Below, piece by piece: positions 39,962-55,874 of a DNA stretch of 64,000 nucleotides (positions are counted from its first letter, which is position 1; each line of letters starts with the position of its first letter). Made by a program: the position numbers and the translations under genes. Source of the DNA: Jiangella alkaliphila (GTDB taxonomy: Bacteria > Actinomycetota > Actinomycetes > Jiangellales > Jiangellaceae); contig NZ_LT629791.1 in assembly GCF_900105925.1 (NCBI RefSeq), forward strand, positions 2,577,278 to 2,641,277, read 5' to 3'. The notes beneath the pieces were generated by a model that was given only the letters and a program-made list of their open reading frames with translations, was not told the origin of the DNA and made no database searches.

Positions 39962-42442
39962 ATGCGTCGAGCGTTGCGACCGATTGTCGCCGGTCTTGTC
40001 ATGCTGCCGTTGGTCGCCTGCTCGGGCGAGCAGGAGGACTGCTGTTCGCCGGATCCGAACGATGTGCCGCGCGTCCTCACGGCCAACGTCGAACGGGTGC
40101 TCCCGGCCGACGGCAGCCCGCTGATCCCCGGCCCGGGCGACGAGCGGCTGGAGCTCGCCGCCGCCACCTCGGCCGGTGGCGAGGTCGTCGCGGTCGGCCG
40201 GCGCCGTGACGCTGGCGACCAGTCCGAGGCGGCGCTGCTGCGCTCCGCCGACGGCCGCGAGTGGACCGCAACCTACCTGCCCGGCCCAGTCGCCGGCGGC
40301 ACGCTCGCCGCCGTCGCGCCGGCCGGTGACGACGTCCTGGCGTTCGGCAACGACGCCGACGGCGCGCCGGTCGCCGTGCGGGTCACCGCCGACGCGGCCG
40401 AACCGGCCGAACCGGTCGAGCTGCCGTTGCCGGCGACGGAGGACGGGGACCGGCCGGCCCGGGTTCGCGCCGCCGTCACCACCGGCGACCGCGTCGTCCT
40501 CGCCGCCGTGAGCGTCGAGGGCGGCGACGATCCGCAGAACGCGTCCGCCGTGCTGCACGTCCTGGCGTCGGAGGACGACGGGGCGACCTGGACCGCACTG
40601 GAGCTGCCGGACGAATTGCGGGTCGTCGGCACCGGCCCGGCCATGCTCGAGCAGGCGACGCCCGGCGAGATCGGGCTGGCCGCCTACGACGGCGCCCCGG
40701 TGCTGTCGGTCGGTCTGCCCGGCGCCGACGGCGTCGTCACGACCCTCTGGCGGGGCGACGAGGCCGGCGCGGAGTGGACGTCGCTCGGCACGGCCGCCGA
40801 CCTCTTCGAGGGCGAGGCTCTCGACCTGCTGCACGGCCATGGCGACACGCTGCTGGCCTTCACCCGTGCCGGCACCGACGCGTCGGCGTGGCGCAGCGAC
40901 GACGGCGGCGGCACGTTCGCTCGGGTCGACGCCGGCCCGGCGGCGTTCGGCGGTGGCGGCCGGCAGATCGTCGACGCCGCGGTCACCCTGGAGTCCGGCG
41001 TTCTGGTGGTCGCCGGCCGGACCGAGGGAGAGGTGTTCAACGGTCGTCGCCCCAGCGCCCTCGAGCTCTGGGTGACCGACGACCTGGAGACGTGGCGGCG
41101 CTCGCTCGACGACCCGGAGCTGGCCGGCGGCGGACGCCAGCAGACGGCCGGGCTGGCCGCGGTCGGCGACGAGGTGGTCGTCGTGGGGAGCGACCAGCGC
41201 CGGCCGGCGGACGACGAGGCGGAGGTCGCGGCCGCGCCATTGGCCACGCACGGCGCGAGCTGGATCGTCGTCATCGCCGACGGCCCCGCCGAGCCGCCGG
41301 TCGAGGTCACACCGCTCGAGGTCACCGGGTTCGCCGCCGGCGCCACTGTCACGAGGGTCGTCGCGGCCGCTGACGGCCTCATCGCCGCCGGCTCCACGAG
41401 CACCGGCGACGACCACGACGTGCCCGCGGTCTGGACCTCGCCCGACGGTGTCGCCTGGACGCCCGTCGAGGCGCCGGCGCTCCAGGACGTCACCGGCACG
41501 ATCGAGGGCCTCACGGTCACCGAGGACGGCGGCGTGGTCGCCGTCGGCCAGGTGACCGGCCCGGATCCCGATGACGACGCCGACGACCGGCTCGGCGTCT
41601 GGACCTCGCCCGACGGCGCCGAATGGGCCCGCGTCGACCTCACCGACCTGGTCTACGCGGGCGCCGTCGGCTACTCCGTCACCCAGGCCGGCGACGCGAT
41701 CGTGGCCGTCGGCACCAGCGAGCCCGAGGGCCGCGGCTACCGCGACGTGGGCATCTGGCGCTCCACGGACCTGGGCGCGACCTGGGCCGCCGTCCCGACC
41801 GCCGAGGAGCCGTTCCGGGCCCAGGAGATCGAGGTGCTGTTCGGCGTCGGCGTGCGCTTGGACGGCACCATCGTCGCGGTCGGGCACACCGGTGAACCCC
41901 TGCAGTCTCCGGGCGGGGGCTACTCGTACTCGCCGCAGGCGTATGCGCTGGAGTCCGCCGACGGCCAGACGTGGGAGACGGTGCCGGCGCCGTTCGACGG
42001 CGCCGACTTCGCCGAGCTGTACCTGGCCCAGCGGATCGGCGACGACTTCCTGGTCGCCGGCACCGCCGGTCTGCCGCTGGACCTGCCGAACGAGGACGAC
42101 ACGGTGTCGACGTCCGGCGCCGCGCGCGCCGACGGCGACGGTGACGACTGGGCGGTCTCCGAGCAGCGGTTCCGGAGCCGCCCGGTGGTCCGGGCCGCCG
42201 TGCCGAGCACCACCGCCGGCACCGTCGTCGTCGGGGAGTGGTGGCGGGGCGGGGCCGGGCAGGACCCGCTGATCGCGGTCGAGCGCGAGGGCGCGCTGTT
42301 CCCGGTCGACGGCGACCTCCTCGACGAGCGCGAGACCGCCGCCGTCGGCGCCGCCGAGCTGGGCGAACAGGTGGTCGTCCTGGGCATGGACACCACCGAC
42401 GACGCACCCGCCGTCGTCGGCTGGTCGCTGGCCTTCCCATGA
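39962..42442 (+). CDS. large beta-propeller lipoprotein
   Basis: An 826-residue lipoprotein with lipobox LVAC (Cys20) and a Cys-rich start (CSGEQEDCCSPD). The rest is made of repeating beta segments of the type LLRSADGREWTATYLPG, LASEDDGATWTALELPD, WRSDDGGGTFARVD, VWTSPDGVAWTPVEAP, VWTSPDGAEWARVDL, WRSTDLGATWAAVP and ALESADGQTWETVPAP. These are BNR/Asp-box-like blades of beta-propellers; two propellers may be present. No catalytic residues of sialidases are apparent. It is probably a surface-exposed binding or scaffold protein. The stop codon lies inside a 22-bp perfect palindrome. Confidence 0.7.
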   Translation: MRRALRPIVAGLVMLPLVACSGEQEDCCSPDPNDVPRVLTANVERVLPADGSPLIPGPGDERLELAAATSAGGEVVAVGRRRDAGDQSEAALLRSADGREWTATYLPGPVAGGTLAAVAPAGDDVLAFGNDADGAPVAVRVTADAAEPAEPVELPLPATEDGDRPARVRAAVTTGDRVVLAAVSVEGGDDPQNASAVLHVLASEDDGATWTALELPDELRVVGTGPAMLEQATPGEIGLAAYDGAPVLSVGLPGADGVVTTLWRGDEAGAEWTSLGTAADLFEGEALDLLHGHGDTLLAFTRAGTDASAWRSDDGGGTFARVDAGPAAFGGGGRQIVDAAVTLESGVLVVAGRTEGEVFNGRRPSALELWVTDDLETWRRSLDDPELAGGGRQQTAGLAAVGDEVVVVGSDQRRPADDEAEVAAAPLATHGASWIVVIADGPAEPPVEVTPLEVTGFAAGATVTRVVAAADGLIAAGSTSTGDDHDVPAVWTSPDGVAWTPVEAPALQDVTGTIEGLTVTEDGGVVAVGQVTGPDPDDDADDRLGVWTSPDGAEWARVDLTDLVYAGAVGYSVTQAGDAIVAVGTSEPEGRGYRDVGIWRSTDLGATWAAVPTAEEPFRAQEIEVLFGVGVRLDGTIVAVGHTGEPLQSPGGGYSYSPQAYALESADGQTWETVPAPFDGADFAELYLAQRIGDDFLVAGTAGLPLDLPNEDDTVSTSGAARADGDGDDWAVSEQRFRSRPVVRAAVPSTTAGTVVVGEWWRGGAGQDPLIAVEREGALFPVDGDLLDERETAAVGAAELGEQVVVLGMDTTDDAPAVVGWSLAFP

Positions 42443-42492
42443 TCATCAACCTTTTGCGTCATCATGCCAGCGCAAAAGGTTGATGATCATGG
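42437..42492. repeat. 22-bp perfect intergenic palindrome overlapping a stop codon
   Basis: The arms 42437-42458 and 42471-42492 are perfect inverted copies around a 12-base loop. The left arm includes the TGA of the propeller lipoprotein gene (42440-42442) and the core TGATCATCAACCTTTTGCG. It would make a very stable hairpin able to end transcription, but the AT-richer arms differ from the neighbouring sequence and suggest a dispersed palindromic element. Confidence 0.75.
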
Positions 42493-42530
42493 TCGGGAAA
42501 TCTGGGGTTGACGCCGCCGAAACCTCGGCC

Positions 42531-42560
42531 TTACAGTCGTGCTTCGTCAGGCACTTATAC
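42531..42560 (+). promoter_or_regulatory. possible promoter of the glycan-catabolism operon
   Basis: TTACAG (42531-42536) and TTATAC (42555-42560) with an 18-base spacer resemble a housekeeping promoter just before the LacI-type gene (start 42579). Confidence 0.35.
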
Positions 42561-42578
42561 GTATTAGTGGAGCCTCTC

Positions 42579-43655
42579 GTGACCGATCGACCGCGGCGCC
42601 GGCGCCCCACCCAGGTGGACATCGCCCGGCGCGCCGGCGTCTCGCAGGCCACCGTCTCGCTGGTCATCAGCGGCGGCGCGGCCAGCGACCAGATCGCCGA
42701 GACGACGCGGCAGGCCGTCCTCGCCGCGGCCGCGGAGCTGGGCTACTCGGCCAACGTGGCGGCGCGCAGCCTCAAGGGCGGGCGCAACCACCTGCTCGGG
42801 CTCTACACGTTCGAGCCGGTCTTCCCGACCGACCAGCGCGACTTCTACTACCCGTTCCTGCTCGGCGTCGAGGAGGAGACCGCGGCCCAGGGCTACGACC
42901 TGCTGCTGTTCAGCTCGGTCACCTCGGCGGCCGACCGGTCGATCTACGGCGGCGGCGCCAACCGGCTCAAGCTCGCCGACGGCTGCGTGCTGCTCGGCCG
43001 CAACGTCCGCCGCGAGGAGCTGAACGCGCTGGTCCAGGAGGACTTCCCGTTCGTCTTCATCGGCCGCCGCGAGGTCGACCAGGGTGAGGTCAGCTACGTC
43101 GGGGCGGACTACGTCGCCGCCACCAGTGCCATGGTCGCCGAGCTGCACCGGCAGGGGCACCAGCGCATCCTGTACCTGCGCGCCATCGAGGACACCGAGC
43201 CGACCCGCGACCGCGAGCAGGGCTACCGCGAGGGCCTGGCCGCCGCCGGGCTCGAGGTCGACGAGCGGCTCATCCAGGGCCTGGCCGACCCCGCCGACCT
43301 GTCCGCCGAGCACGTCCAGCACTGGATCGGCTCCTACGGCGTCACCGCGATCCTGGTCGAGCCGACCGAGGACAACCGGCTGGTCGACGCGCTGACGGCG
43401 ATGACCGACAACGAGCGGGTGCGGTTCCCGGAGGACTGCTCGATCGCGCTGCTCGGCGAGCCGCCGTCGTGGACGCCTGAGCTGCGCGACTGGTCCCGGT
43501 TCTCGCTGCCGCGCGCCGAGATGGGCCGCGAGGCGGTGCGGATGCTGGTCGACCTGCTCGGCGACGCCCAGCCGGCCGCGCGGCAGGTCACCCTGCCGTG
43601 CACGTTCGTGCCGGGCGACTCCATCGGCCCGGCGCCCCGAGGCGGGCGGACATGA
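42579..43655 (+). CDS. LacI-family transcriptional regulator
   Basis: A 358-residue regulator. The N-terminal LacI helix-turn-helix (TQVDIARRAGVSQATVSLVISGG) with hinge helix NVAARSLKGG is followed by a periplasmic-binding-protein-like sensor domain. It is first in a ten-gene operon; the next gene overlaps its stop (ATGA), so it should control that locus and respond to a catabolite of the imported glycan. The GTG at 42579 follows GGAG by seven bases; GTG 42567 is an alternative. The hinge lacks the usual ALxxxxS spacing only slightly. Confidence 0.88.
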   Translation: MTDRPRRRRPTQVDIARRAGVSQATVSLVISGGAASDQIAETTRQAVLAAAAELGYSANVAARSLKGGRNHLLGLYTFEPVFPTDQRDFYYPFLLGVEEETAAQGYDLLLFSSVTSAADRSIYGGGANRLKLADGCVLLGRNVRREELNALVQEDFPFVFIGRREVDQGEVSYVGADYVAATSAMVAELHRQGHQRILYLRAIEDTEPTRDREQGYREGLAAAGLEVDERLIQGLADPADLSAEHVQHWIGSYGVTAILVEPTEDNRLVDALTAMTDNERVRFPEDCSIALLGEPPSWTPELRDWSRFSLPRAEMGREAVRMLVDLLGDAQPAARQVTLPCTFVPGDSIGPAPRGGRT

Positions 43656-44581
43656 TCAAGATCATCCTGCGCCGCCTGCTCATCGGCCTGTTCGTCATGT
43701 GGGGCGCCGCCTCGCTGATCTTCGTCATCGTCCGCGTCGCGCCGGGCGACCCGGCCACCGTCATGCTCGGGCCGGACGCCGACCCGGAGCAGATCGCCCG
43801 GCTGCACGAGACCCTCGGCCTGGACCGGCCGATGTTCGCGCAGTACCTGAGCTTCCTCGGCGACGCGGTCCGGCTGGACTTCGGCGACTCGCACCGGCTC
43901 GGCCGGCCCGCGATGGACGCGGTGTTCGACCGGCTGCCGGCGACCCTCGAGCTGACCCTCGCGGCCACCGCGATCGCCGTCGTCGTCGGCCTGACGCTCG
44001 GCCTGGTGGCCGGCGGCAAGCCGGGCGGCGTGGTCGACAGGGTCGTGTCGGCGGCCACCATCGCGCTGCAGTCGTTCCCGACGTTCTGGGTCGGCATCAT
44101 GCTGATCCTGGTGTTCGCGCTCGGGCTGCGGCTGCTGCCCAGCGCCGGGGTCGGCACGCCGCAGCACATGATCCTGCCCGCGGTGACGCTGGCGCTGCCG
44201 TTCACGGCGATCGTCGCCCGGCTGACCCGCAGCTCCGTCGCCGAGGCGATGCGCGAGCCGTACGTCCAGACCGCGCGGTCCAAGGGGCTGACCGAGCCGC
44301 AGGTGCTGCTCGGCCACGCGCTGCGCAACTCGCTGATCCCGGTCGTGACGGTGGTCGGGCTGCAGATGGGTGCGCTCATGGGCGGCGCCGTCATCGTCGA
44401 GAACGTGTTCGCCTGGCCCGGTCTCGGGTCGCTCGTGGTCGACGCCGTAGCCAACCGCGACTACGCCGTCGTCCAGGCCGTGACGCTGCTGATCGCCGGC
44501 ATCGTCATGGTGCTCAACCTCGTCGCGGACCTGCTGTACACCCAGCTCGATCCGCGCATCCGGATGGAGGGGGTGTCATGA
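43652..44581 (+). CDS. Dpp/Opp-type ABC permease, first subunit
   Basis: A 309-residue DppB-like permease. IILRRLLIGLFVMWGAASLIFVIVRVAPGDP is the classic first helix and GDP motif. The EAA loop reads EPYVQTARSKGLTEPQVLLGHALRNSLIPVVTVVG, and the C-terminal segment VENVFAWPGLGSLVVDAVANRDYAVVQAVTLL is diagnostic. It forms the channel with the next gene. Although the family is named for peptides, members also import sialic acid, nickel and oligosaccharides; context here favours a glycan. Confidence 0.88.
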   Translation: MIKIILRRLLIGLFVMWGAASLIFVIVRVAPGDPATVMLGPDADPEQIARLHETLGLDRPMFAQYLSFLGDAVRLDFGDSHRLGRPAMDAVFDRLPATLELTLAATAIAVVVGLTLGLVAGGKPGGVVDRVVSAATIALQSFPTFWVGIMLILVFALGLRLLPSAGVGTPQHMILPAVTLALPFTAIVARLTRSSVAEAMREPYVQTARSKGLTEPQVLLGHALRNSLIPVVTVVGLQMGALMGGAVIVENVFAWPGLGSLVVDAVANRDYAVVQAVTLLIAGIVMVLNLVADLLYTQLDPRIRMEGVS

Positions 44582-45456
44582 CGGCCGCCGTCACCCTGGA
44601 CACGCCGCTGGCGACCACCCGGCGCCGCCGCGGCGGCTGGCTGAGCAGGGTGCCCTACGTCGTCATCGGGCTGTACGTGCTGGTCGGGCTGGTCGGCCCG
44701 CTGCTGATCGACTACGACCCGGTGCACACGCCGCTGGAGGACCGGCTGCTCTCGCCGGGCTCGACGACGGCGGACGGCGGCACCGCCTGGCTCGGCACCG
44801 ACGACCTCGGCCGCGACATCCTGGCCCAGATCGTCTACGGCGCCCGCACGTCGGTGCTCATCGGCGTCGCGACGGTGGGCGTGTCCAGTGTCGTCGGGCT
44901 GCTGCTCGGCGCCGTCGCCGGCTACGCACGCGGCTGGCTCGACGCCGTCCTGGCCCGCATCTTCGACGTGCTCCTGGCGTTCCCCGCGATCCTGCTGGCC
45001 ATCGTCATCGCCGGGGCGTTCCAGCGCAGCGTCCTGCTGGTGGTGGTCGCGCTGTCGGCCACCGCGTGGATCTCGTTCGCCCGGGTCACCCGCAGCGTGG
45101 CCCTGTCGCTGCGGGAACGGGCCTGGGTCGACGCGGCCCGGGTGCTCGGCGTGCCGCAGCGCTCCATCCTGTGGCGGCACATCCTCCCCTTCACCGCCGG
45201 ACCGATCGTGGCGCTGGCCACGCTCGAGTTCGCCCTGGTCGTGCTGGCCGAGGCGGGCCTGAGCTTCCTCGGCATCGGACTGCCCTCGTCGACGGTGTCG
45301 TGGGGGCAGACCATCGCGAACGGCAAGGCCTATCTCGAGACCGCGTGGTGGATCTCCACCCTCCCGGGCATCGCGCTGTCCCTGCTGATCATCAACGTCG
45401 GGATCCTCGGCGACCAGCTGACCGCCCGGTACGGGCGCGGCCGCCGTGACCCATGA
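44578..45456 (+). CDS. Dpp/Opp-type ABC permease, second subunit
   Basis: A 292-residue DppC-like permease. HTPLEDRLLSPGST...WLGTDDLGRDILAQIVYGARTSVLIGV is the family hallmark, with EAA loop RERAWVDAARVLGVPQRSILWRHILPFT and ending LSFLGIGLPSSTVSWGQTIANG...ALSLLIINVGILGDQL. The ATG overlaps the first permease stop. It is the second channel subunit. Confidence 0.88.
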   Translation: MTAAVTLDTPLATTRRRRGGWLSRVPYVVIGLYVLVGLVGPLLIDYDPVHTPLEDRLLSPGSTTADGGTAWLGTDDLGRDILAQIVYGARTSVLIGVATVGVSSVVGLLLGAVAGYARGWLDAVLARIFDVLLAFPAILLAIVIAGAFQRSVLLVVVALSATAWISFARVTRSVALSLRERAWVDAARVLGVPQRSILWRHILPFTAGPIVALATLEFALVVLAEAGLSFLGIGLPSSTVSWGQTIANGKAYLETAWWISTLPGIALSLLIINVGILGDQLTARYGRGRRDP

Positions 45457-45476
45457 GGCACATGAAGGAGCCATCC

Positions 45477-47018
45477 ATGACCCGATTCAGGGGCCGCCGC
45501 CTCGCGACGACCGTCGCCGCGGCCGCCGCGCTGCTGCTGGCGGCGTGTTCGACGACGTCCGGCGGTGACGACACGGCCGACGCCGGTGAGTCCGGCGAGG
45601 CGACCGGCGGCGACGTCGTCGCGGCCGGGACGTACCCGATCGAGAGCCTCGACCCGCACGGCGCCCAAGGCGCCTCGACCGGCACCCAGTTCGCCGGTCA
45701 GGCGATCTTCAGCCGCCTGGTCCGCCCGGCACCCGACGGCTCGCTGGTCGGCGACCTCGCGGAGTCGTGGGAGGCCAGCGCCGACGTCACACAGTGGACG
45801 TTCACGCTGCGCGCCGACGCCACGTTCAGCGACGGCGAGCCGGTGACGGCCGAGGACGTCGTCGCCTCGTTCGACCGGATGATCGCGCTGGACGGACCCA
45901 ACGCCGGCAACTTCCCCGAGTACACGATGACCGCCGCGTCGGACACCGAGGTGACCATCACCTCGCCCGCGCCGGACGCCGCCGTGCCGGGCAAGCTGCT
46001 GATCTTCTACGTGATCCCGGCCGGCGTCGCGCCCGACGACACCGCGTTCTTCGCCGAGCCGGTCGGCTCCGGCCCGTTCACCGTCGGCGCGTTCACGCCG
46101 GGCGACTCGCTCGAGCTGGTGCCGAACGAGAGCTACTGGGGCGACGTGCCGCAGGTCGACAGCGTCACCGTCCGCAACATCCCGGAGCTGTCCGCGCGCC
46201 TCACCGCGCTGCGCACCGGCGAGGTCGACGTCGTCTGGGGCATCCCGGACGACCAGCTCGGCGCGCTGCAGGGCGAGGACTCGCTGACGGTCGAGACGGT
46301 GGCCAGCACGGCCGTCTACACGATGTGGTTCAACTCGTCGATCCCGGCGCTGTCGACGCCGGAGGTCCGCCGGGCGCTGTGGCAGGCGGTCGACTTCGAG
46401 ACGATCATCTCCACGCTCTACCCGGAGACCGGTGAGCTGGCCGACGCGCCCGTCTCGCCGCTGGTGCTCGGGTACTCGCCGCAGGAGCCGGTCGGCTACG
46501 ACCCCGACGCGGCCCAGGCGGCACTGACGGCGGCCGGCTTCGACTTCTCGCAGACGCTGCGGCTGCAGTTCGCCAACGCCGAGTTCCGCCCGTTCATCCA
46601 GGCCGTCGTGTCCGACCTCGCCGAGATCGGCGTCACCGTCGAGCCGCTGGAGAAGGAGCAGGCCGTCTTCACCGAGGACCTGCTGGCGCTGAACTGGGAC
46701 GTCAACTTCCAGCAGCTGGCCACCCCGACGTACGACGCGGCCAGCAACCTCGGCCGCCTCTACACCTGCGCGGCCGGCCGCAACGGCTACTGCAACCCGG
46801 AGCTGGACGCCCTGCTCGCCGCGGCGAGCGCCACCAGCGACGAGGCCGAGCGGACCGAGCTGTACGGCCAGGCCAGCGAGATCATCTGGCGCGACGCCGT
46901 CGGCATGTACCCGATGGCGGTCAGCCTGGCCTACGCCTGGAACAGCGACCTGGCCGGCTTCACCCCCGACCCGAGCGGCCTGCCCGACTTCTCGACGGTG
47001 ACGGTCTCGGGCTCGTGA
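45477..47018 (+). CDS. family-5 (Dpp/Opp-type) substrate-binding lipoprotein
   Basis: A 513-residue SBP_bac_5 lipoprotein. Signal peptide with lipobox LLAAC is followed by a Gly/Asp-rich linker, then YPIESLDPHGA, LAESWEASADVTQWTFTLRADATFSDGEPVTAEDVVASFDRM, and GSGPFTVGAFTPGDSLELVPNESYWG. It binds the imported molecule outside the cell. Three in-frame ATGs exist (45453, 45462, 45477); 45477 is chosen because AAGGAG lies six bases before it. Ligand specificity cannot be read from the sequence. Confidence 0.87.
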   Translation: MTRFRGRRLATTVAAAAALLLAACSTTSGGDDTADAGESGEATGGDVVAAGTYPIESLDPHGAQGASTGTQFAGQAIFSRLVRPAPDGSLVGDLAESWEASADVTQWTFTLRADATFSDGEPVTAEDVVASFDRMIALDGPNAGNFPEYTMTAASDTEVTITSPAPDAAVPGKLLIFYVIPAGVAPDDTAFFAEPVGSGPFTVGAFTPGDSLELVPNESYWGDVPQVDSVTVRNIPELSARLTALRTGEVDVVWGIPDDQLGALQGEDSLTVETVASTAVYTMWFNSSIPALSTPEVRRALWQAVDFETIISTLYPETGELADAPVSPLVLGYSPQEPVGYDPDAAQAALTAAGFDFSQTLRLQFANAEFRPFIQAVVSDLAEIGVTVEPLEKEQAVFTEDLLALNWDVNFQQLATPTYDAASNLGRLYTCAAGRNGYCNPELDALLAAASATSDEAERTELYGQASEIIWRDAVGMYPMAVSLAYAWNSDLAGFTPDPSGLPDFSTVTVSGS

Positions 47019-48034
47019 GCGAGGTACGGACGGCGCGAACCGGCGGCTCCCCGGTGGCCCAGCACGAGGCGTTGCTGCAGGTCGACGGGCTGACCGTCGA
47101 CCTGCCGGGGACGCGGGGCGACGTGCGGGTGGTCGACGGCGTGTCGTTCGACGTCCCGGCCGGCAGCACGGTCGGGTTGATCGGGGAGTCCGGCAGCGGC
47201 AAGACGATGACCGCCAACGCGATCATCGGGCTGCTGCCGGACGGCGCCCGCACCGGCGGCCGGCTGCTGTGGCGGGGCGAGGACCTGCTGCACGCCGACG
47301 TCGCCCGCCGGCGGAAGGCCCGCGGCCACGAGATCTCGATGATCTTCCAGGACCCGCTGGCCGCGCTGAATCCCACGCAGCGGATCGGCCGCCAGGTCGG
47401 CGAGATCCTCCGCCGCGACGGTGTCGGCCGGGCCGAGGTGCGCCGTCGCGTGGTCGAGCTGCTGGACCGTGCCGGCGTGCCGGACCCGGCCGAGCGGGCG
47501 AACCGCTACCCGCACGAGTTCTCCGGTGGCCTGCGGCAGCGGGCGATGATCGCGCTGGCGCTGGCCGGCAACCCGTCGCTGCTGCTCGCCGACGAGCCGA
47601 CGACGGCGCTGGACGTCACCGTCCAGGGCCGGATCCTGCGGCTGCTGCGGTCCATCCAGGAGTCCGACGGTCTCTCGGTCCTACTGGTCAGCCACGACCT
47701 GCGCGTGGTCGCGAACGTCGCGCAGCAGGTCGTCGTCATGTACGCCGGCCGGGTCGCCGAGCGCGGCCCGGCCCCGCAGGTGCTGCGCCGCCCGGCGCAC
47801 CCGTATACGAAGGCGCTGGTCCGCAGCGTGCCGGCGGTCCGGACGAAGACCGCCCTGGCCGACCCGCTGCCCGGCGCTCCGGCCACCCCCGCGAACCGGC
47901 CGGCCGGCTGCCCGTTCCACCCGCGCTGCCCGATCGCCCAGGACCGCTGCCGGGTGGACGTCCCGCCCGTCCGCGAGGTGGCGCCGGGCCGGTTCAGCGC
48001 CTGCCACTTCGCCGAGGAGGTGCTCGCCCCGTGA
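47015..48034 (+). CDS. Dpp/Opp-type ABC ATPase, DppD-like
   Basis: A 339-residue ATPase: Walker A GESGSGKTM, Q-loop IFQDPLAALNP, signature FSGGLRQR, Walker B LLLADEPTTALD and H-loop VSHDL. A C-terminal oligopeptide-type extension carries four cysteines (CPFHPRCPIAQDRC ... CHF) that may hold an iron-sulfur cluster. The GTG start overlaps the binding-protein stop. It pairs with the second ATPase after a 217-base gap containing palindromic repeats. Confidence 0.87.
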   Translation: MSEVRTARTGGSPVAQHEALLQVDGLTVDLPGTRGDVRVVDGVSFDVPAGSTVGLIGESGSGKTMTANAIIGLLPDGARTGGRLLWRGEDLLHADVARRRKARGHEISMIFQDPLAALNPTQRIGRQVGEILRRDGVGRAEVRRRVVELLDRAGVPDPAERANRYPHEFSGGLRQRAMIALALAGNPSLLLADEPTTALDVTVQGRILRLLRSIQESDGLSVLLVSHDLRVVANVAQQVVVMYAGRVAERGPAPQVLRRPAHPYTKALVRSVPAVRTKTALADPLPGAPATPANRPAGCPFHPRCPIAQDRCRVDVPPVREVAPGRFSACHFAEEVLAP

Positions 48035-48071
48035 CCCGTCCAGCGCGAGAACGTCGCCCCGGCGCCGTTGT

Positions 48072-48107
48072 GTCACCTGATCATCTTCTCGAAAACGATC
48101 AGGTGAC
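48072..48107. repeat. palindromic element copy 1
   Basis: GTCACCTGATC (48072-48082) and its inverse GATCAGGTGAC (48097-48107) enclose a 14-base loop. Arms and the first and last loop bases match the element at 48132-48177. Confidence 0.75.
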
Positions 48108-48131
48108 GTGGAGCCCGGCGGCGGGCGTTTG

Positions 48132-48177
48132 GTCACCTGATCATCTCCAGCATGTGGACCGGAAACGATCAGGTGAC
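48132..48177. repeat. palindromic element copy 2
   Basis: GTCACCTGATC (48132-48142) and GATCAGGTGAC (48167-48177) enclose a 24-base loop that begins ATCT and ends GAAAC, as in copy 1. A third, unpaired half element GTCACCTGATC lies at 48204-48214. The three occupy most of the 217-base space between the two ATPase genes. Confidence 0.75.
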
Positions 48178-48203
48178 AAAGGCGCGGTGCAGCGGGTGGG
48201 TTC

Positions 48204-48214
48204 GTCACCTGATC
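48204..48214. repeat. unpaired half of the palindromic element
   Basis: An exact GTCACCTGATC with no inverse partner nearby, 38 bases before the start of the second ATPase gene. It looks like a truncated third copy. Confidence 0.55.
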
Positions 48215-48251
48215 GTCGTCGCGCCGCCGCGTCGTGCAGAGGAGGACGGTC

Positions 48252-49046
48252 GTGACCGGGGCGTTGCTGGAGATCCGCGACCTGCGGGTGACGTTCGGCC
48301 GGCGGCGCGACCCGTTCGTGGCCGTCGACGGGGTCAGTCTCGACGTCGGCGCCGAGGAGACCGTCGGGCTGGTCGGCGAGTCGGGGTCGGGCAAGACCAC
48401 CGTGGCGCGGTGCGTCGCCGGCTTGCAGCGGCCCGACGCGGGCACCGTCACGTTCGAGGGCCGGCCGCTGGAGCGGGCCGGCCGTCGCCCGGCCGAGCTG
48501 CAGCGGGCCGTCCAGATGGTGTTCCAGGACCCGCGCTCGTCGCTGAACCCGCGGATGAGCGTCGCCGGGATCATCGGCGAGGCGTGGCGCACCCACCCGT
48601 CCACCGCGCCGGACGGCGATCGCACCCAGGCGCTGCACGCGCTGCTGGCCGACGTGGGCATGGACGCCGACGTCGCCGACCGGCGGCCCGGCGACCTGTC
48701 CGGCGGGCAGTGCCAGCGGGTCAGCATCGCCCGCGCGCTGGCGGTCCGGCCGCGGCTGCTGGTCTGCGACGAGGCGGTGTCGGCGCTGGACGTGAGCGTG
48801 CAGGCACAGATCCTGCGGCTGCTCGTCGACCTGCGCAGTACGCACCACCTGGCCATGCTGTTCATCTCGCACGACCTCGGCGTCGTGCACCAGATCGCCG
48901 ACCGCGTCGCCGTCATGCGTCGCGGCGAGGTTGTGGAGGAGGGCCTGGCCACCGACGTCCTCGGCAGCCCGCGGCACGAATACACGCAGGCGCTGCTTGA
49001 CGCCGCCCTCGACCTCGACGACGCCGGCCCGGCGGTGACGGCATGA
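48252..49046 (+). CDS. Dpp/Opp-type ABC ATPase, DppF-like
   Basis: A 264-residue ATPase: Walker A GESGSGKTT, Q-loop VFQDPRSSLNP, signature LSGGQCQR, Walker B LLVCDEAVSALD and H-loop ISHDLGVV. It ends shortly after the H-loop region and lacks the Cys-rich C-terminal extension present in its partner. The GTG at 48252 has GGAGG seven bases ahead. It completes the importer; the next gene overlaps its stop by four bases. Confidence 0.87.
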   Translation: MTGALLEIRDLRVTFGRRRDPFVAVDGVSLDVGAEETVGLVGESGSGKTTVARCVAGLQRPDAGTVTFEGRPLERAGRRPAELQRAVQMVFQDPRSSLNPRMSVAGIIGEAWRTHPSTAPDGDRTQALHALLADVGMDADVADRRPGDLSGGQCQRVSIARALAVRPRLLVCDEAVSALDVSVQAQILRLLVDLRSTHHLAMLFISHDLGVVHQIADRVAVMRRGEVVEEGLATDVLGSPRHEYTQALLDAALDLDDAGPAVTA

Positions 49047-51013
49047 CCGTCCCCGAACCACGAGGCTGGAACACCTGGGACGTCCGCACCCACACCGGCA
49101 TGACGCACCTGCCGTCCGGGCTGCGGGTCCGGTTCGGCCTGCTCGACGCCGCCGGGGCGCCCGTGCTCGACGGGTTCACCTGGCGGCACGGGCTGGTCCG
49201 GCTCGGGCACCACACTGTCGACGGCGCGTTCGCCGAGGTCACGGTGCAGGTCGACGGCGTCGAGCTGCGGCTGACGATGGCCGGAGGCCCCGGCGACGAG
49301 CTGTACGTGCGCGCGGAGTCGGCCGGCACCGTCGTGGTCGACTGGCCGGGGGAGACCGGCTGGCGGCTCAACCGCGACGGCGACGACTTCCTGATCGCCC
49401 CGGCCGGCTCGACCGCGACGGCAGCCGACGTCGGCGCCGTGGTCGAGGAGCACCGGGCCACCGCGGACGCCGTCCGTCCCCGGTCCGGCGGCTGGTACCG
49501 CGACGCCGCCGACGCGCTGAGCCGGGCCGTCACCTGGAACACCATCCACGCGCCCGACCTGGACCGGGTCCTCACCCCGACGTCGCGCGACTTCGTCTCC
49601 GTCGAGCGGCAGGGGTTCTACGGCAGCTGGGCGCTGCACGCGTGGGACACGTTCTTCACCGGGCTGGTCGCGAGCGTCGTCGACCGCGACTACGCGCGCG
49701 GCATCCTGGGCCAGATCCTGCCGTTCGCCGACGCAGCCGGGATGATCCCGAACCGGGTCAGCGATGAGCGCGGCACCACGTGGGACCGGTCGCAGCCGCC
49801 GGTGGGCGCGATGACGGTGCTGTCGGCGTACCTCGCCGGCGGGCTGTCCGACGACACCCGCGACCGGCGGCTGCTGGAGGAGACCTTCCCCGCCCTGCTG
49901 GCCTGGCACGACTGGTGGCCCGAGCACCGCACCGGGCCGCACGGCGTGCTGACCTGGGGGTCGGACCCGGTCGACGGCGACGCCGAGTCGGCCACGCTGG
50001 ACCGCACCAAGCGCGAGTCCGGCCTCGACGACTCGCCGATGTACGACGAGGCCAGGTACGACCCGGCGACGCACACGATGGACCTCGCCGACGCCGGCCT
50101 CAACGCGCTGCACGTCGCCGACGCCGAGGCGCTGGCCACCATGGCGAGCATCCTGCGCGACGACGCCACCGCCGCCCGGCTGACCGACGAGGCCGAGCAG
50201 GCCCGGGCCACGGCGGCGAAGCTGTTCTGGGACGACGACGCCCACGGCTACCGCAATGTCCGCGCCGACGGCAGCCACGACCCGCACGTCTCGCCGACGC
50301 TGCTCTACCCGCTGCTCGGCGGCTTCCCCACGGCCGACGCCGCCCGAGACATCGCCGACGCGCTGCTCGCGCCCGGCGTGCTCGGCGGCGAACGCCCGCT
50401 GCCCAGCGTCGCCCGCAACGACGCCGGGTTCGCCGCCACCTACTGGCGCGGCCGCATCTGGGCGCCGATGGCCTACCTCGCGGTCCAGGGGCTGCGCCGC
50501 TACGACCTGCGCGCCCACAGCCTGGCCGTCAGTGGCGCGCTGCTGGAGCTGTTCCTCGCCGAGTGGGAGACGCACAGCGCGGTCCGGGAGAACTACCCGG
50601 CGTTCGACGGCGAGGACCTCACCGGGTTCCAGCAGCGGTCGGACGGGCTGATGGCGTGGGGCGGGCTGCTGGCCCACCTCGCGTTCGGCGAGCTGGCCGA
50701 GGCCCGCGCCGACGGCTGGCGGTTCGCCCACCCGGGGCAACCGGCCGAGCTGCGCAACCTGCCGCTCGGCGACGGCCGGCTGACGGTGACGGCGGGCGAC
50801 CGGCTGGTCGTGACGCTGGACGGCGCCGTCCTGCTGGACGCCGCGCCGGGCGTCGTCGTCACCGCGTACCGGCGCACCGCCGACGCCGTCAGCTGCACCG
50901 TCACCGGCACGGGTGACGTTCGCATCACAGGCACTCAAGGCGAGCCGGAAGCCGTCACCGTCGACGGCGGCACCCGGCACGTCCAGTTCGTCAGAGAGGG
51001 ATCCCCCGCGTGA
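49043..51013 (+). CDS. GH63/MGH1-like glycoside hydrolase
   Basis: A 656-residue cytoplasmic enzyme without signal peptide. The N-terminal beta-sandwich (residues 1-140) precedes an (alpha/alpha)6 barrel with SWALHAWDTFFTGLVAS, GMIPNRVSDERGTTWDRSQPP, YWRGRIWAPMAYLAVQGLRRY and ENYPAFDGEDLTGFQQRSDGLMAWGGLL. These are hallmarks of the glucosidase I/mannosylglycerate-hydrolase clan. Acidic residues in WDTFF and the ENY...GED region are candidate catalysts. It probably cleaves the imported glycoside inside the cell. It overlaps both neighbours by four bases. Confidence 0.75.
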   Translation: MTVPEPRGWNTWDVRTHTGMTHLPSGLRVRFGLLDAAGAPVLDGFTWRHGLVRLGHHTVDGAFAEVTVQVDGVELRLTMAGGPGDELYVRAESAGTVVVDWPGETGWRLNRDGDDFLIAPAGSTATAADVGAVVEEHRATADAVRPRSGGWYRDAADALSRAVTWNTIHAPDLDRVLTPTSRDFVSVERQGFYGSWALHAWDTFFTGLVASVVDRDYARGILGQILPFADAAGMIPNRVSDERGTTWDRSQPPVGAMTVLSAYLAGGLSDDTRDRRLLEETFPALLAWHDWWPEHRTGPHGVLTWGSDPVDGDAESATLDRTKRESGLDDSPMYDEARYDPATHTMDLADAGLNALHVADAEALATMASILRDDATAARLTDEAEQARATAAKLFWDDDAHGYRNVRADGSHDPHVSPTLLYPLLGGFPTADAARDIADALLAPGVLGGERPLPSVARNDAGFAATYWRGRIWAPMAYLAVQGLRRYDLRAHSLAVSGALLELFLAEWETHSAVRENYPAFDGEDLTGFQQRSDGLMAWGGLLAHLAFGELAEARADGWRFAHPGQPAELRNLPLGDGRLTVTAGDRLVVTLDGAVLLDAAPGVVVTAYRRTADAVSCTVTGTGDVRITGTQGEPEAVTVDGGTRHVQFVREGSPA

Positions 51014-52623
51014 GCAGTGAGACGGCAACGACGACCGACATCCTCGTGGTGGGCGGCGGGCTGGGCGGCGTCGCCGCGGCCCTCGCGGCGCTGCGGCGGG
51101 GCCGGTCGGTCCTGCTCACCGAGGAGACCGACTGGATCGGCGGCCAGCTGACCAGCCAGGGCGTCCCGCCCGACGAGCACGCCTGGATCGAGCAGTTCGG
51201 CAGCACCCGCAACTACCGCGAGCTGCGCGAGAACGTCCGTGCCTACTACCGCACGTGGTACCCGCTGGCCGACTGGGCCCGCGAGGCCCGTGACCTCAAC
51301 CCCGGCCAGGGTCGGGTCAGCCGGCTCTGCCTCGAGCCGCGGGTCGGCGCCGCCGTGCTCGAGGCGATGGTGGCGCCCTGGATCGCGGCCGGCCGGCTGC
51401 GCGTCGTGTACCGGCACCGCCCGGTGGCCGCGAGCGTCGACGGCGACCGCGTCACCGCCGTGGTGGTCGAGGGCCCGGACGGCGACCGGCTGGAGGTCCG
51501 CGCGCCGTACGTCCTCGACGCCACCGAGCTGGGCGACCTGCTGCCGCTCACCGGCACCGAGCACGTCACCGGGTTCGAGTCGCGGCACGACACCGGCGAG
51601 CCGAGCGCTCCGGACGAGGCGCAGCCGGACAACATGCAGGCGTTCTCGTGGGTGTTCGCCGTCGACCACCGGGCGGGCGAGGACCACACCGTCGACCGCC
51701 CGGCCGGCTACGCCGCCTGGCGCGACTACCAGCCGCCGAAGTGGCCGAACCCGCTGATCAGCCTCAGCGGCCCGGACCCGCGGACGCTGGAGACGTTCGA
51801 GCGGGCGTTCCTGCCCAACGGCGACGCCGGCCCGGTCGTGGCCGACCAGAGCAAGGATCCCGGCGACCGCGAGCTGTGGGCGTTCCGGCGCATCGTCGCG
51901 CGGTCGGTGTTCCGGCCCGGGTTCGCCGACAGCGACGTCACCGTCGTCAACTGGCCGATGATCGACTACCTGCCCGGACCGTTGATCGGCGTCAGCAACG
52001 AGGAGCGCGAGAAGCACCTCGCCGGCGCCCGCGAGCTGTCCATGTCGATGCTGTACTGGCTGCAGACCGAGGCGCCGCGGCCCGACGGCGGCACCGGCTG
52101 GCCCGGGCTGCGGCTGCGCGGCGACGTCATGGGCACCACCGACGGGCTGGCGAAGGCGCCCTACATCCGCGAGTCACGCCGCATCGTGGCCCGCCGCCGC
52201 GTCGTCGAGCAGGACCTGTCGCTGGCGGTCCGCGGCGACGCCGGCGCGGTGCAGTACTCGGACAGCGTCGGCGTCGGCATGTACCGCATCGACCTGCACC
52301 CCTCGACCGGCGGCGACACCTATATCGACGTCGCCAGCAGCCCGTTCCAGATCCCGCTCGGCGCGCTGCTGCCGGTGCGGCTGCGCAACCTGCTGCCGGC
52401 CGGCAAGAACATCGGGACGACGCACATCACCAACGGCTGCTACCGGCTGCACCCGGTGGAGTGGAACGTCGGCGAGGTCGCGGGCGCGCTGGCGGCGCAC
52501 TGCCTCGCCGGCGGGCTGGAGCCGGGGCAGGTGCACGAGGACGGCGCTCGGCTGACGGCGTTCCAGGACGAGCTGGCCGCGGACGGCGTCGAGCTGGCCT
52601 GGCCGGAGATCAGGGGGTACTGA
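51010..52623 (+). CDS. FAD-dependent oxidoreductase (FAD_oxidored family)
   Basis: A 537-residue flavoprotein. N-terminal dinucleotide fold GGGLGGVAAALAALRRGRSVLLTEE is followed by DWIGGQLTSQGVPPDEH; the C-terminal FAD-binding part is NLLPAGKNIGTTHITNGCYRLHPVEWNVGEVAGALAA. This PF12831-type family often accompanies glycoside-catabolism genes in soil bacteria but has no generally assigned reaction. It might oxidise a sugar hydroxyl or modify the aglycone. No signal peptide is present. Start and stop overlap its neighbours. Confidence 0.78.
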   Translation: MSSETATTTDILVVGGGLGGVAAALAALRRGRSVLLTEETDWIGGQLTSQGVPPDEHAWIEQFGSTRNYRELRENVRAYYRTWYPLADWAREARDLNPGQGRVSRLCLEPRVGAAVLEAMVAPWIAAGRLRVVYRHRPVAASVDGDRVTAVVVEGPDGDRLEVRAPYVLDATELGDLLPLTGTEHVTGFESRHDTGEPSAPDEAQPDNMQAFSWVFAVDHRAGEDHTVDRPAGYAAWRDYQPPKWPNPLISLSGPDPRTLETFERAFLPNGDAGPVVADQSKDPGDRELWAFRRIVARSVFRPGFADSDVTVVNWPMIDYLPGPLIGVSNEEREKHLAGARELSMSMLYWLQTEAPRPDGGTGWPGLRLRGDVMGTTDGLAKAPYIRESRRIVARRRVVEQDLSLAVRGDAGAVQYSDSVGVGMYRIDLHPSTGGDTYIDVASSPFQIPLGALLPVRLRNLLPAGKNIGTTHITNGCYRLHPVEWNVGEVAGALAAHCLAGGLEPGQVHEDGARLTAFQDELAADGVELAWPEIRGY

Positions 52624-53540
52624 TGACGGACGGTCGCGCCCTGCTGAGCGGGGTCATGGTGCCGCTGGTGACGCCGATGAGCAGGCCCGGGGTCCCGTCG
52701 GCCGGCGCCGCGGAGGACCTGCTGGCGGCGCTGGCGCAGGCCGGTGTGCGCAGCCTCATGTTGTTCGGCAGCAACGGCGAGGGCCCGCTGCTGCCGACGG
52801 GGGCACTGACGGAGTTCGCGGCCGGCGTCGCGGCCCAGTGGCGCCAGCTCACCGGCGACGGGCCGGTGCTGGTCAACGTCACGGCCGCCGGTACCGCGGA
52901 GGCGCTGGAGCGGGCCGCGGCCGTCCGCCTGGCCGAGCCCGACGCCGTCGTCGTCAGCCCGCCGATCTACTACCGGCACCGCGACGATGAGGTGGTCGCG
53001 CACTTCGCCGCGTTCGCCGCCGCGGGCGTGCCGGTGGTCGCCTACAACGTCCCGCGCTACAGCGTGCCGATGACGCCGGCGGTGCTCGACGAGGTGCTGG
53101 CGATGCCGCACGTCGTGGGCCTCAAGGACAGCTCCGGCGACCTCGCGCTGTTCGGCGAGGTGGTGGCCGCCGCCCGGCGCCGCGACGACGTCGGCGTCAG
53201 CCAAGGCTCGGAGACGCAGCTGGTGGCCGGGCTGGAGGCGGGCGCCGACGGCATCGTGCCGGGCATCGCGAACCTCGCCCCGGTGCCGAGCGTGGAACTG
53301 TACGACGCGTTCCGGTCCGGGCGGCTGGCCGACGCCGACGCCGCGCAGGAGATCGCCGACCAGGTGGTCAAGCTGCACACCGTCCGGCCCGGCGTGCCGT
53401 CGGTCAAGGCCGTCCTCGACTCCCGCGGGCTCTGCCCGCCGCACGTCGCCGCCCCGTTCGCGCCGGTCACCCCGGCCGAGCGGATCGCGCTGCTGGACCT
53501 GCTCCGCCCGCTCGACGCGCACCTGATCACCCCCCATTGA
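52623..53540 (+). CDS. DHDPS/N-acetylneuraminate lyase-family aldolase
   Basis: A 305-residue TIM-barrel Schiff-base aldolase. LFGSNGEGPLL carries the substrate carboxylate-binding GSNGE loop, YNVPRYS the catalytic Tyr, and VGLKDSSGD the Schiff-base Lys. Being beside a sialidase-like gene and an importer, a sialic-acid or 2-keto-3-deoxy-acid lyase is plausible. The GSNGE loop, however, is closer to 4-hydroxy-2-oxoglutarate or 2-keto-3-deoxysugar aldolases than to classic NanA (usually GSTGE). The start shares a base with the upstream stop. Confidence 0.8.
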   Translation: MTDGRALLSGVMVPLVTPMSRPGVPSAGAAEDLLAALAQAGVRSLMLFGSNGEGPLLPTGALTEFAAGVAAQWRQLTGDGPVLVNVTAAGTAEALERAAAVRLAEPDAVVVSPPIYYRHRDDEVVAHFAAFAAAGVPVVAYNVPRYSVPMTPAVLDEVLAMPHVVGLKDSSGDLALFGEVVAAARRRDDVGVSQGSETQLVAGLEAGADGIVPGIANLAPVPSVELYDAFRSGRLADADAAQEIADQVVKLHTVRPGVPSVKAVLDSRGLCPPHVAAPFAPVTPAERIALLDLLRPLDAHLITPH

Positions 53541-53554
53541 TCTAAGGAGAGCTC

Positions 53555-55186
53555 GTGGAAGGCACCTCGATCAGTCGTCGCACCCTCGTTCTCGGCAGCG
53601 CCGCCGTCGGTGTGCTGGCCTCGGCCACGCCGGTGTTCGCCGCCGACTCGGCCGAGGGCGACTTCCAGGAGTCGCTGGTGTTCCGCGCCGGCGATGACGG
53701 CCTGGCGGTCTTCCATGTCTTCGGCCTGACGACGACAGTGGCCGGCTCGGTGCTGGCGTTCGCCGAGGCCCGCATCACCCAGCACGACGCCGACCCGCAC
53801 CACCTCGCCGTCCGCCGCAGCCGCGACGGCGGGCGCACCTGGGAGCCGCTGCGCTACGTGCGCCGCTCCGACGGCGTCCAGTCGTTCATCAACCCGACGC
53901 CCCTGGTCGACCGGGAGTCCGGCCGGATCTTCCTGTTCCACGCCGAGTGCTTCCGCGACGCGGGCAACACCGGCGGCTCGCCGGACAGCTCCCGGTTGTA
54001 CGTCGTCACCAGCGACGACGACGGCCAGACCTGGTCCGAACCGCAGGATCTGACCCAGCTGTTCGACGGCGACCCGAACGGGCAGACGCTGCACATGCCC
54101 GGGCCGGGGCACGGCCTGCAGCTCGCCGACGGCCGGCTCGTGCTGCAGGTCTGGCACCGCCGGGCGATCGCGTTCCCGGTCGCCGAGCGGCGCTACGGCG
54201 TCACCGTCATCCACAGCGACGACGGCGGCGCGACGTGGCAGGCGGGCGGCGGCGTCCCGCTGGACGGCGCCTACCCGCTGAACGAGGCCCGGCTGGTCGA
54301 GCGGCCGGACGGCGCGCTGGTCGTGCTCGGCCGGTACGCGTCCGGCGGCACCCACCCGCGGATCGTCTCCGTCAGCACCGACCGCGGCGCCACCTGGTCG
54401 CCGCCGGTGCTGGACGCGGCGGCCCGGCCGGTCAACGCGATCGACACCGGCATCGTCAGGCTCACCGGCCTGGGGGAGCGCGAGGACAGCCGGCTGGTGT
54501 TCTCGCGCACCGACTCGCCGACCCGCCGGAACATGACCGTCTCGATCTCCTACGACGAGGGCATGAGCTGGCCGTACAGCCGGGTCCTCACCGAGGGCCC
54601 GGCGTCGTACTCCGACACCGTCGCCCTGCCGGACGGCCGGATCGGCGTGCTGTACGGCCGCGAGCACGTGCCGGGCGTCACGACGAGCTTCTCCCGCGAC
54701 ATCGTGTTCGCGACGTTCGACCTCGCCTGGCTGACGTCCGGCGCCGACACCGGCCGCCGCGGTCCGGCCACCCGGCTGTCCTTCGAGGTCGAGTCGCTGC
54801 CGGTGACGTCGACGGCCGGCGTGACGGTGAACCGCCCGGCCGACGCCGCGGCCAGCGGCGGCGCCCGCGTCGAGGTGCTGGCGACCGACTACGGCCAGTA
54901 CCTCGAGGCGACGATCGAGATCACCCGTGGCGGCCAGTACGACCTGTACGCGCGGTTCCGGCACCTGCCCAACGGCGGCGTCGTCGCCATTGACGTCGAC
55001 GGGTCGCGGCTGGGCGGTCAGTTCGACACGTCGACGCTGTCGGTGCGGTCGTTCCGGACCGAGCTCGTCGGCCGGGTGGCGCTCGGCCGCGGCCGGCACA
55101 CCGTCCGCTTCACCGTCGTCGACAAGCAGGTCGACTCGACCGGGGTCCGGTTCAGCCCGGACCTCATCGGGCTGGTGCTCGCGTGA
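53555..55186 (+). CDS. Tat-exported sialidase-superfamily glycosidase
   Basis: A 543-residue secreted protein. The N-terminal ISRRTLVLGSAAVGVLASATPVFA is a twin-arginine signal. Five Asp boxes (SRDGGRTW, SDDDGQTW, SDDGGATW, STDRGATW, SYDEGMSW) mark a six-bladed GH33-like propeller; catalytic-type residues are suggested by FAEAR near residue 71, NEARLVE and the tyrosine/arginine in TRRNM and SYSDT. A C-terminal jelly-roll domain (residues 410-543) resembles a carbohydrate-binding module. GTG 53555 follows AAGGAG. It should act outside the cell, releasing the sugar the operon imports. Confidence 0.78.
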   Translation: MEGTSISRRTLVLGSAAVGVLASATPVFAADSAEGDFQESLVFRAGDDGLAVFHVFGLTTTVAGSVLAFAEARITQHDADPHHLAVRRSRDGGRTWEPLRYVRRSDGVQSFINPTPLVDRESGRIFLFHAECFRDAGNTGGSPDSSRLYVVTSDDDGQTWSEPQDLTQLFDGDPNGQTLHMPGPGHGLQLADGRLVLQVWHRRAIAFPVAERRYGVTVIHSDDGGATWQAGGGVPLDGAYPLNEARLVERPDGALVVLGRYASGGTHPRIVSVSTDRGATWSPPVLDAAARPVNAIDTGIVRLTGLGEREDSRLVFSRTDSPTRRNMTVSISYDEGMSWPYSRVLTEGPASYSDTVALPDGRIGVLYGREHVPGVTTSFSRDIVFATFDLAWLTSGADTGRRGPATRLSFEVESLPVTSTAGVTVNRPADAAASGGARVEVLATDYGQYLEATIEITRGGQYDLYARFRHLPNGGVVAIDVDGSRLGGQFDTSTLSVRSFRTELVGRVALGRGRHTVRFTVVDKQVDSTGVRFSPDLIGLVLA

Positions 55187-55198
55187 TGTGATGGTCGG

Positions 55199-55783
55199 GT
55201 GGCGAAGCCGACGCGCTGGGTGACCGACACCAAGGCCGGTCACTCGCAGTGGTACATCGAGCGGTTCCGGACCATGGCGGCCGACGGCACCGACCTCGGC
55301 GGCGAGGCCCGGCTGGTCGACGCCATGGTCGCGCCGGGGTCGAGGGTCCTCGACGCCGGGTGCGGCACCGGCCGGGTGGCCGCCGTCCTGCACGAGCGCG
55401 GCCACACCGCCGTCGGCGTCGATGCCGACCCGGAGCTGATCGCGGCCGCCCGCGCCGACCACCCCGGCCCGCGGTTCGTCGTCGCCGACCTGTCCGAGGT
55501 GGACCTCGGCGAGACGTTCGACGCCGCGGTGCTGGCCGGCAACGTCATGGTGTTCGTGGCGCCCGGTACGGAGACCGAGGTACTGCGGCGGGTGGCGGCG
55601 CACGTCGTGCCGGACGGCTTCGTGGTCGTCGGCTTCCACACGAACCGCCACCTCGTCCTCGACGACTTCGACCGCTCCGTGGCCGAGGCCGGCCTGCGGC
55701 TGGAGCACCGGTTCGCCACCTGGGACCTGCGCCGCTGGCACGACGACGCCGACTTCGCCGTCAGCGTGCTCCGCCACCGCTGA
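55199..55783 (+). CDS. class I SAM-dependent methyltransferase
   Basis: A 194-residue enzyme with the class I motif order: VLDAGCGTGRVAAVLHERG (motif I), VGVDADPELI, FVVADLSEVDL, and VLAGNVMVFVAPGTE before a GFVVVGFHTNR strand. A short N-terminal segment (KAGHSQWYIERFRTMAADG) is typical of small-molecule methyltransferases. Substrate is unknown. The GTG at 55199 sits 13 bases after the sialidase stop, so it may be cotranscribed, but it has no clear ribosome binding site. Confidence 0.8.
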   Translation: MAKPTRWVTDTKAGHSQWYIERFRTMAADGTDLGGEARLVDAMVAPGSRVLDAGCGTGRVAAVLHERGHTAVGVDADPELIAAARADHPGPRFVVADLSEVDLGETFDAAVLAGNVMVFVAPGTETEVLRRVAAHVVPDGFVVVGFHTNRHLVLDDFDRSVAEAGLRLEHRFATWDLRRWHDDADFAVSVLRHR

Positions 55784-55796
55784 CCCGCCCTCCTCC

Positions 55797-55874
55797 GAAG
55801 TTGATCTTGGAGTAGTGCGGCCATCTATCGGACATTTCACCCCGCAATTCCGGCTTTACTCCAAGATCAACTTC
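55797..55874. repeat. 18-bp perfect palindrome between convergent genes
   Basis: GAAGTTGATCTTGGAGTA (55797-55814) and its inverse (55857-55874) are separated by 42 bases. The right arm lies inside the kinase gene and includes its TAA stop. It may act as a bidirectional terminator between the methyltransferase and kinase genes. The arms are AT-richer than the surroundings, and the last five codons of the kinase are made of the element. Confidence 0.75.

Follow-up and report, generated by a model that had tools for sequence, protein, structure and literature searches.

The DNA analysed here is a 64,000-nucleotide stretch of the Jiangella alkaliphila genome (the window). The locus of interest encodes a LacI-type regulator, two permeases, a solute-binding protein, two ATPases and a glycoside hydrolase as neighbours. 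The two ATPase genes, of the oppD and oppF types, are separated by a gap of 217 bases (oppD stop at 48034, GTG start of oppF at 48252), and the gap holds five exact copies of the half-site GTCACCTGATC in the order + - + - + (Table 1), both as the first-pass annotation had described. That annotation had also called the cluster denser than chance, and this was borne out: in 100 dinucleotide shuffles of the window we found a mean of 0.03 and a maximum of 1 exact copy of GTCACCTGATC. With up to two mismatches the window total is 20, against 20.4 expected, which is no more than chance gives, so the signal lies in the exact cluster.

Table 1. Features of the oppD–oppF junction, in window positions. 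Spacing counts refer to 83 distinct elements; the scripts sought nearby spacings, so the tightness of the counts is partly built in.
Feature	Position	Strand	Remark
oppD-type ABC ATPase gene	47015..48034	+	ABC_tran, oligo_HPY
Gap DNA	48035..48251	+	no counterpart in four relatives, which have an ATGA/GTGA stop/start overlap
H0, eroded sixth half-site GTCGCCCCGGC	48053..48063	+	6 of 11 bases; 8 nt 5' of H1; placed from intact H0 in Haloactinopolyspora and Phytoactinopolyspora copies and the column profile
H1 half-site GTCACCTGATC	48072..48082	+	exact
First-hairpin spacer, 14 nt	48083..48096	+	14 nt in 76 of 83
H2 half-site	48097..48107	-	exact
H2-H3 linker, 24 nt in this copy	48108..48131	+	26 or 27 nt in 75 of 83
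H3 half-site	48132..48142	+	exact
Second-hairpin spacer, 24 nt, with partly conserved CTCCAGCATGTGGAC	48143..48166	+	24 or 25 nt in 80 of 83
H4 half-site	48167..48177	-	exact
H4-H5 linker, 26 nt	48178..48203	+	26 nt in 63 of 83
H5 half-site and last conserved bases	48204..48217	+	exact half-site 48204-48214; conservation falls off beyond about 48217
AGGAGG, ribosome-binding-like site for the uncoupled oppF start	48240..48245	+	
oppF-type ABC ATPase gene	48252..49046	+	ABC_tran

Plan and distribution of the repeat

The J. alkaliphila genome (one contig, 7,716,500 bases) contains 41 exact half-sites, 29 of them in seven alternating arrays and 12 elsewhere. A mobile palindrome of the REP type had been among the first-pass suggestions, with a genome-wide search for the motif as a check on it, and with seven arrays in the genome the idea survives. 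A covariance model built from 36 elements and used at E<=0.001 gave 14 matches in this genome, which fall at the same seven places (best per place E 2.8e-34 to 1.3e-13); a fifteenth match with an E of 0.083 was left out of the count.

Full copies share the plan H1-14-H2-26/27-H3-24/25-H4-26-H5, about 167 bp. H0 lies 8 nt before H1. It is mostly eroded in Jiangella, and many copies from Haloactinopolyspora and Phytoactinopolyspora have it as an exact half-site. Conservation drops to the left of H0 and about 3 nt past H5. The unit consists of six 11-mer half-sites, H0-H5, in a fixed order of orientations, with near-fixed spacings and freely varying spacers. Of the earlier description of the gap as two and a half hairpin copies, the half-sites stand and the grouping does not; one element of five half-sites is preferred. 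One J. alkaliphila array (L043, C1:3802200-3806700) is broken by a MITE-like insert of about 220 bp with ends like AGCCTGTTGCT / AGCAACAGGCT, which lies between half-sites at 3804338 and 3804570.

Model matches were found in 13 of the 22 genomes of the family. They number at least 130 in G019, 115 in G001, 113 in G016, 85 in G012, 78 in G010 and 40 in G006, and 15, 14 (J. alkaliphila), 12, 6, 3, 2 and 1 in the remaining carriers; these are not element counts, because near-palindromic elements can match on both strands. Exact hairpins occur in nine of the 22 family genomes and in none of the 371 other genomes of the class (393 searched). A scan of named genomes gave at least 120 stretches with exact hairpins, and the 80 matches listed are mainly from Jiangella, Haloactinopolyspora and Phytoactinopolyspora, all Jiangellaceae. 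The repeat family is thus seen mainly in the Jiangellaceae.

Single hairpins among the matches listed came from three Photobacterium species and from one Saccharibacteria, one Modestobacter and one Blastococcus genome. The three Photobacterium species have one exact hairpin each, with a 10-nt loop, at related loci (L066, L114, L115); these are probably unrelated to the Jiangellaceae element and possibly a terminator. The bare 11-mer has 33 exact copies in G389, 36 in Blastococcus (L111/G393) and 20 in Modestobacter (L106/G394). The repeat of these two Geodermatophilaceae genera uses the same 11-mer, and several of its copies lie at gene ends (judged by eye). It is built differently, as a GATCAGGTSACCTGATC palindrome beside a CCTCCCTCACC-type hairpin.

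Insertion sites and gene context

An orthologous opp operon, at 85% DNA identity or more, was found in six relatives; the other 15 genomes gave weaker matches. In four of the six (G013, G014, G005 and G011) the two ATPase genes overlap by their stop and start codons, and G012 has the element at the same place. In G010 the junction holds a different, unrelated palindromic insert. A 14-mer of this insert belongs to a separate repeat, with 101 exact copies in J. alkaliphila and matches in 11 of the 22 family genomes. A copy of this second family also lies in the window at 55797-55874, with arms GAAGTTGATCTTGGAGTA / TACTCCAAGATCAACTTC set 42 nt apart. Precise loss of the element that restored the stop/start overlap in four species is unlikely. 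Insertion at the overlap is therefore the better reading of the oppD–oppF copy. With copies elsewhere in the genome and the family and an empty site in four relatives, the proposal of a REP-like mobile palindrome is supported.

We found further indications of movement at other loci. G005 lacks a second J. alkaliphila array (3232611) and has two overlapping convergent stop codons at that position; at the array locus, the stop codon of the upstream gene is now a TGA resembling part of a worn H0. The elements of L052, L054 and L089 are 94-96% alike over H2-H5 and have unrelated flanks. In G019 a composite of about 530 bp, made of two inverted elements, occurs at four loci in copies that are 83-94% alike, one of them without the left end (L218, L219, L220 and L222; ends CCCCGTGTG / CACACGGGG).

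The right flank of the opp site resembles the end of oppD in local alignment (p=0.005 in the window, 0.002 in G012). The AGGAGG region may thus belong to a copy of the oppD 3' end that has since diverged, and the need for a ribosome-binding site can also explain the likeness. At the second J. alkaliphila site no such flank likeness was seen (p 0.32).

Copies lie mostly at the 3' ends of genes. Genes were called with a simple purpose-made caller, which missed at least one gene. In a first set of 50 entries, four of which are second readings of the same arrays, 20 elements lie in convergent gaps, 24 in same-direction gaps, 5 in divergent gaps and 1 in an undetermined one. The corresponding numbers for a further 46, five of which are elements that also belong to the first set, are 18, 23, 1 and 4. 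As a background, the fetched loci have 215 gaps of 150 bp or longer, element-bearing ones included, of which 54 are convergent, 111 same-direction and 50 divergent. Divergent gaps are avoided: they account for 5 of 49 and 1 of 42 elements in the two sets, compared with 50 of 215 in the background. The H0 side faces a gene end in 35 of 46 entries, at a median of 19 nt behind the stop (range -2 to 337), and some predicted gene ends reach into H0. Same-direction gaps hold the element in both orientations (16 and 8 in the first set, 14 and 9 in the second). No predicted gene crosses the element in 50 of 50 and 45 of 46 entries, the exception being an overlapping prediction at L233.

Directly behind a gene assigned by eye as sdhB-like, an element is present in three genera: J. 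alkaliphila (L047), H. alba (L296) and P. alkaliphila (L051/L231). The J. muralis locus L123 lacks an exact half-site behind sdhB. The copies in the three genera look old and retained in place. They would reflect either an early insertion or insertions that hit one site repeatedly, and their presence behind sdhB slightly lowered our confidence in a mobile repeat.

We looked for an enzyme linked to the element. The 666 predicted proteins of the neighbouring genes were clustered, and inspection by eye of the 25 most recurrent clusters revealed no transposase-like family. A glyoxalase-like protein lies between the paired elements of L231, and L297 has one element and ordinary-looking reading frames (by eye). 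Between two inverted elements of H. alba lies a gene for a 359-aa protein (L296:857-1933, minus strand) with no match in Pfam or NCBIfam. Its sole close relative in the searched loci adjoins the J. alkaliphila array L047 (65% over 262 aa) and has an apparently broken reading frame. This candidate was rejected, because both copies are behind sdhB and shared synteny explains the association.

Alternative roles of the half-sites

The mean pairwise identity of the 83 elements is 0.86 in the half-sites and 0.45 in the spacers, a contrast inflated by the way in which the loci were found, by half-sites or exact hairpins. In seven orthologous pairs of copies, 299 of 330 half-site positions and 311 of 490 spacer positions are identical. 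In the five pairs that align cleanly the numbers are 186 of 187 and 177 of 245; this subset was chosen post hoc, with L049/L084 and L065/L249, in which some half-sites have no partner, set aside. The better conservation of the half-sites between orthologous copies suggests use by the cell, beyond purely selfish spread.

This raises the possibility, which we regard as open to doubt, that the half-sites are bound by a chromosomal protein, whether a nucleoid, topology or regulatory factor, and are kept for this at a set spacing, and that their spread is secondary. Both half-site contrasts would fit such a role, the first with the inflation noted above, as would the elements 3' of sdhB and the joint change of H3, H4 and H5 in G019. 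Mismatches within H1:H2 are more often G-T than A-C and within H3:H4 are about equal, so there is no clear strand preference overall, which also fits. However, copying to unrelated places is observed, and nine of the 22 family genomes (two of these incomplete) have no model match, so the sites look dispensable.

We consider it unlikely that the array is a 3'-end RNA element, either a partial terminator or a processing site, as in a further first-pass suggestion, or a set of mRNA-stabilising hairpins. Its copies do lie just 3' of stop codons, mostly in convergent or tandem gaps, but this location can be explained by the survival of harmless insertions. The gap folds more stably than its shuffles (z -3.4), and strong hairpins are possible. 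An intrinsic terminator was rejected, as no GC hairpin with a T-run was found across 42400-55200, and Rfam gave nothing above its cut-off in 47000-49300; the sole match, to a miRNA model, is outside the gap and far under the cut-off (28.7 of 78 bits).

Covariation was examined in three sets of elements. In 36 sequences, pairing of H1:H2 and H3:H4 is favoured over H2:H3 and H4:H5, with 3 versus 1 double-changed pairs (9 of 500 and 250 of 500 in shuffles for the two schemes), and there is some compensatory change in H1:H2. In the larger set of 83, however, the competing H4:H5 pairing co-varies as strongly as H3:H4, a comparison confounded by species. Longer stems, with pairing inside the loops and linkers, were not convincingly supported by covariation in 42 elements (lowest p 0.017, many positions compared), and outward extensions of H1:H2 and H3:H4 in the 83 gave scattered p values down to 0.0035 over 18 positions, from which we claim nothing. 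An example of compensatory change is TGCATCTGATC with GATCAGATGCA in G019. Because H3, H4 and H5 change together, pairing and protein recognition are inseparable here; we lean towards the half-sites acting at the level of DNA rather than RNA.

It is improbable that the array is a miniature inverted-repeat element (MITE) of a DDE transposase. The two inverted elements of the G019 composite do give it inverted ends, and at L083 in J. muralis a 268-bp MITE encloses an array; its ends are like AGGGTGTCNCCCGGGTC, and such ends were found at six loci. However, at the L083 locus G005 has the same MITE, of 160 bp, without the array, which indicates that array and MITE are separate things. MITEs with AGGGTGTCNCCCGGGTC-like ends were seen at L053, L081, L083, L089, L090 and L121 in J. 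muralis and at L270 in G005. Single units of the array have no terminal inverted repeats, since H0 and H5 point the same way, and there is in general no target-site duplication (matched flanks 13.16, mismatched 12.81, sd 0.33).

The palindromic motif shares an operon with the LacI-type gene (42480-43655), and the first-pass idea that the half-sites are its operators was rejected as having almost no chance of being right. By the first-pass criterion an operator motif would occur only here, and this one is also present in six other arrays and as lone copies elsewhere in the genome. Near the regulator gene itself, no site with up to two mismatches starts within 42301-43700. Of six relatives, one has kept the motif alongside regulator and operon, whereas G005, G014, G011, G013 and G010 keep the LacI protein (89-95% identity) and the operon (87–97% identity for regulator and operon together) in 10-kb stretches without an exact half-site.

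Comparison with known repeats and meaning for the family

The reading that we prefer, and hold to be likely, is that the oppD–oppF array is a copy of a dispersed, apparently non-autonomous, REP/BIME-like palindromic repeat of the Jiangellaceae. In the parts of two papers on which we draw (PMC2817692, PMC3733652), REPs and BIMEs are alternating extragenic palindromes behind ORF ends, known chiefly from Proteobacteria; GTAG or CGTC tags are described, with RAYT transposases as the explanation of the GTAG class. In common with the RAYT-linked REPs and BIMEs, so far as PMC2817692 was available to us, the Jiangellaceae element has regularly spaced alternating palindromes that are extragenic and, in some genomes, numerous. 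Unlike them, it has six half-sites in a set plan, no GTAG head and no Y1_Tnp. Counting GTAG up to 6 nt outside each half-site gives 0, 0, 1, 0 and 1 of 83 elements for H1 to H5, and Y1_Tnp (RAYT) was found in none of the 22 family genomes; 5 of 14 control genomes were positive, E. coli among them. REPs and BIMEs usually exceed 100 copies per genome, and the element ranges from 0 to at least 130 model matches on both strands, with seven places in J. alkaliphila. It also belongs to Actinobacteria, a word absent from the main text of PMC2817692.

The comparison with CGTC-tagged REPs rests on the available part of PMC3733652. That superfamily is said to lack a dedicated transposase; here, neither Y1_Tnp in the family genomes nor a transposase-like family among the neighbour clusters inspected was found. 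Its members follow ORF ends closely, where the adjoining genes converge or run in the same direction, and spacers of similar length and differing sequence are known, as in the element. Unlike them, the element has no constant C before GTC (23, 38, 26, 23 and 22 of 83 for H1-H5, minus-strand sites being read as the complement). CGTC REPs are 20-40 bp long and often occur as dimers, compared with a unit of about 167 bp here, and Actinobacteria are not among the phyla named for them in that part of the paper. MITEs are likewise short, non-coding and dispersed; unlike them, the single unit lacks terminal inverted repeats and a general target duplication. The element works like REPs and BIMEs but stands outside both tagged families, since the tags and the RAYT are missing. 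No description of this repeat was found in the literature searched (titles and abstract openings, with subscription journals and preprints outside the scope), and the letters of the motif, searched as literature text, gave no bacterial paper by title among the matches listed.

A half-site-recognising enzyme or a replication process, acting in trans, would spread copies of the repeat. The copies would persist where no gene is broken, and so right behind stop codons. At oppD–oppF the insert would have uncoupled oppF from oppD by separating their stop and start codons and would place two strong hairpins in the opp transcript. Judging from the DNA, the inserted element probably reduces expression of oppF and the genes behind it, an effect that the ribosome-binding-like site of the right flank may offset in part. 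More tentatively, the Jiangellaceae may have a REP-like system with an origin separate from that of the GTAG/RAYT repeats. In it, an undescribed enzyme or other protein would recognise and spread the element of six half-sites and co-evolve with the half-site between species (TGCATCTGATC in G019, for example), and the half-site would also be used in the Geodermatophilaceae repeat.

A repeat family that reaches high copy in high-GC Actinobacteria, follows a set plan and lacks a RAYT raises the question of what other machinery can produce repeats of the REP type. Since related species range from zero to at least 130 matches, comparing which genes they have and lack offers a way to look for the responsible gene. 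The opp operon offers a case of a repeat that entered an operon at a stop/start overlap, with a different repeat at the same junction in another species.
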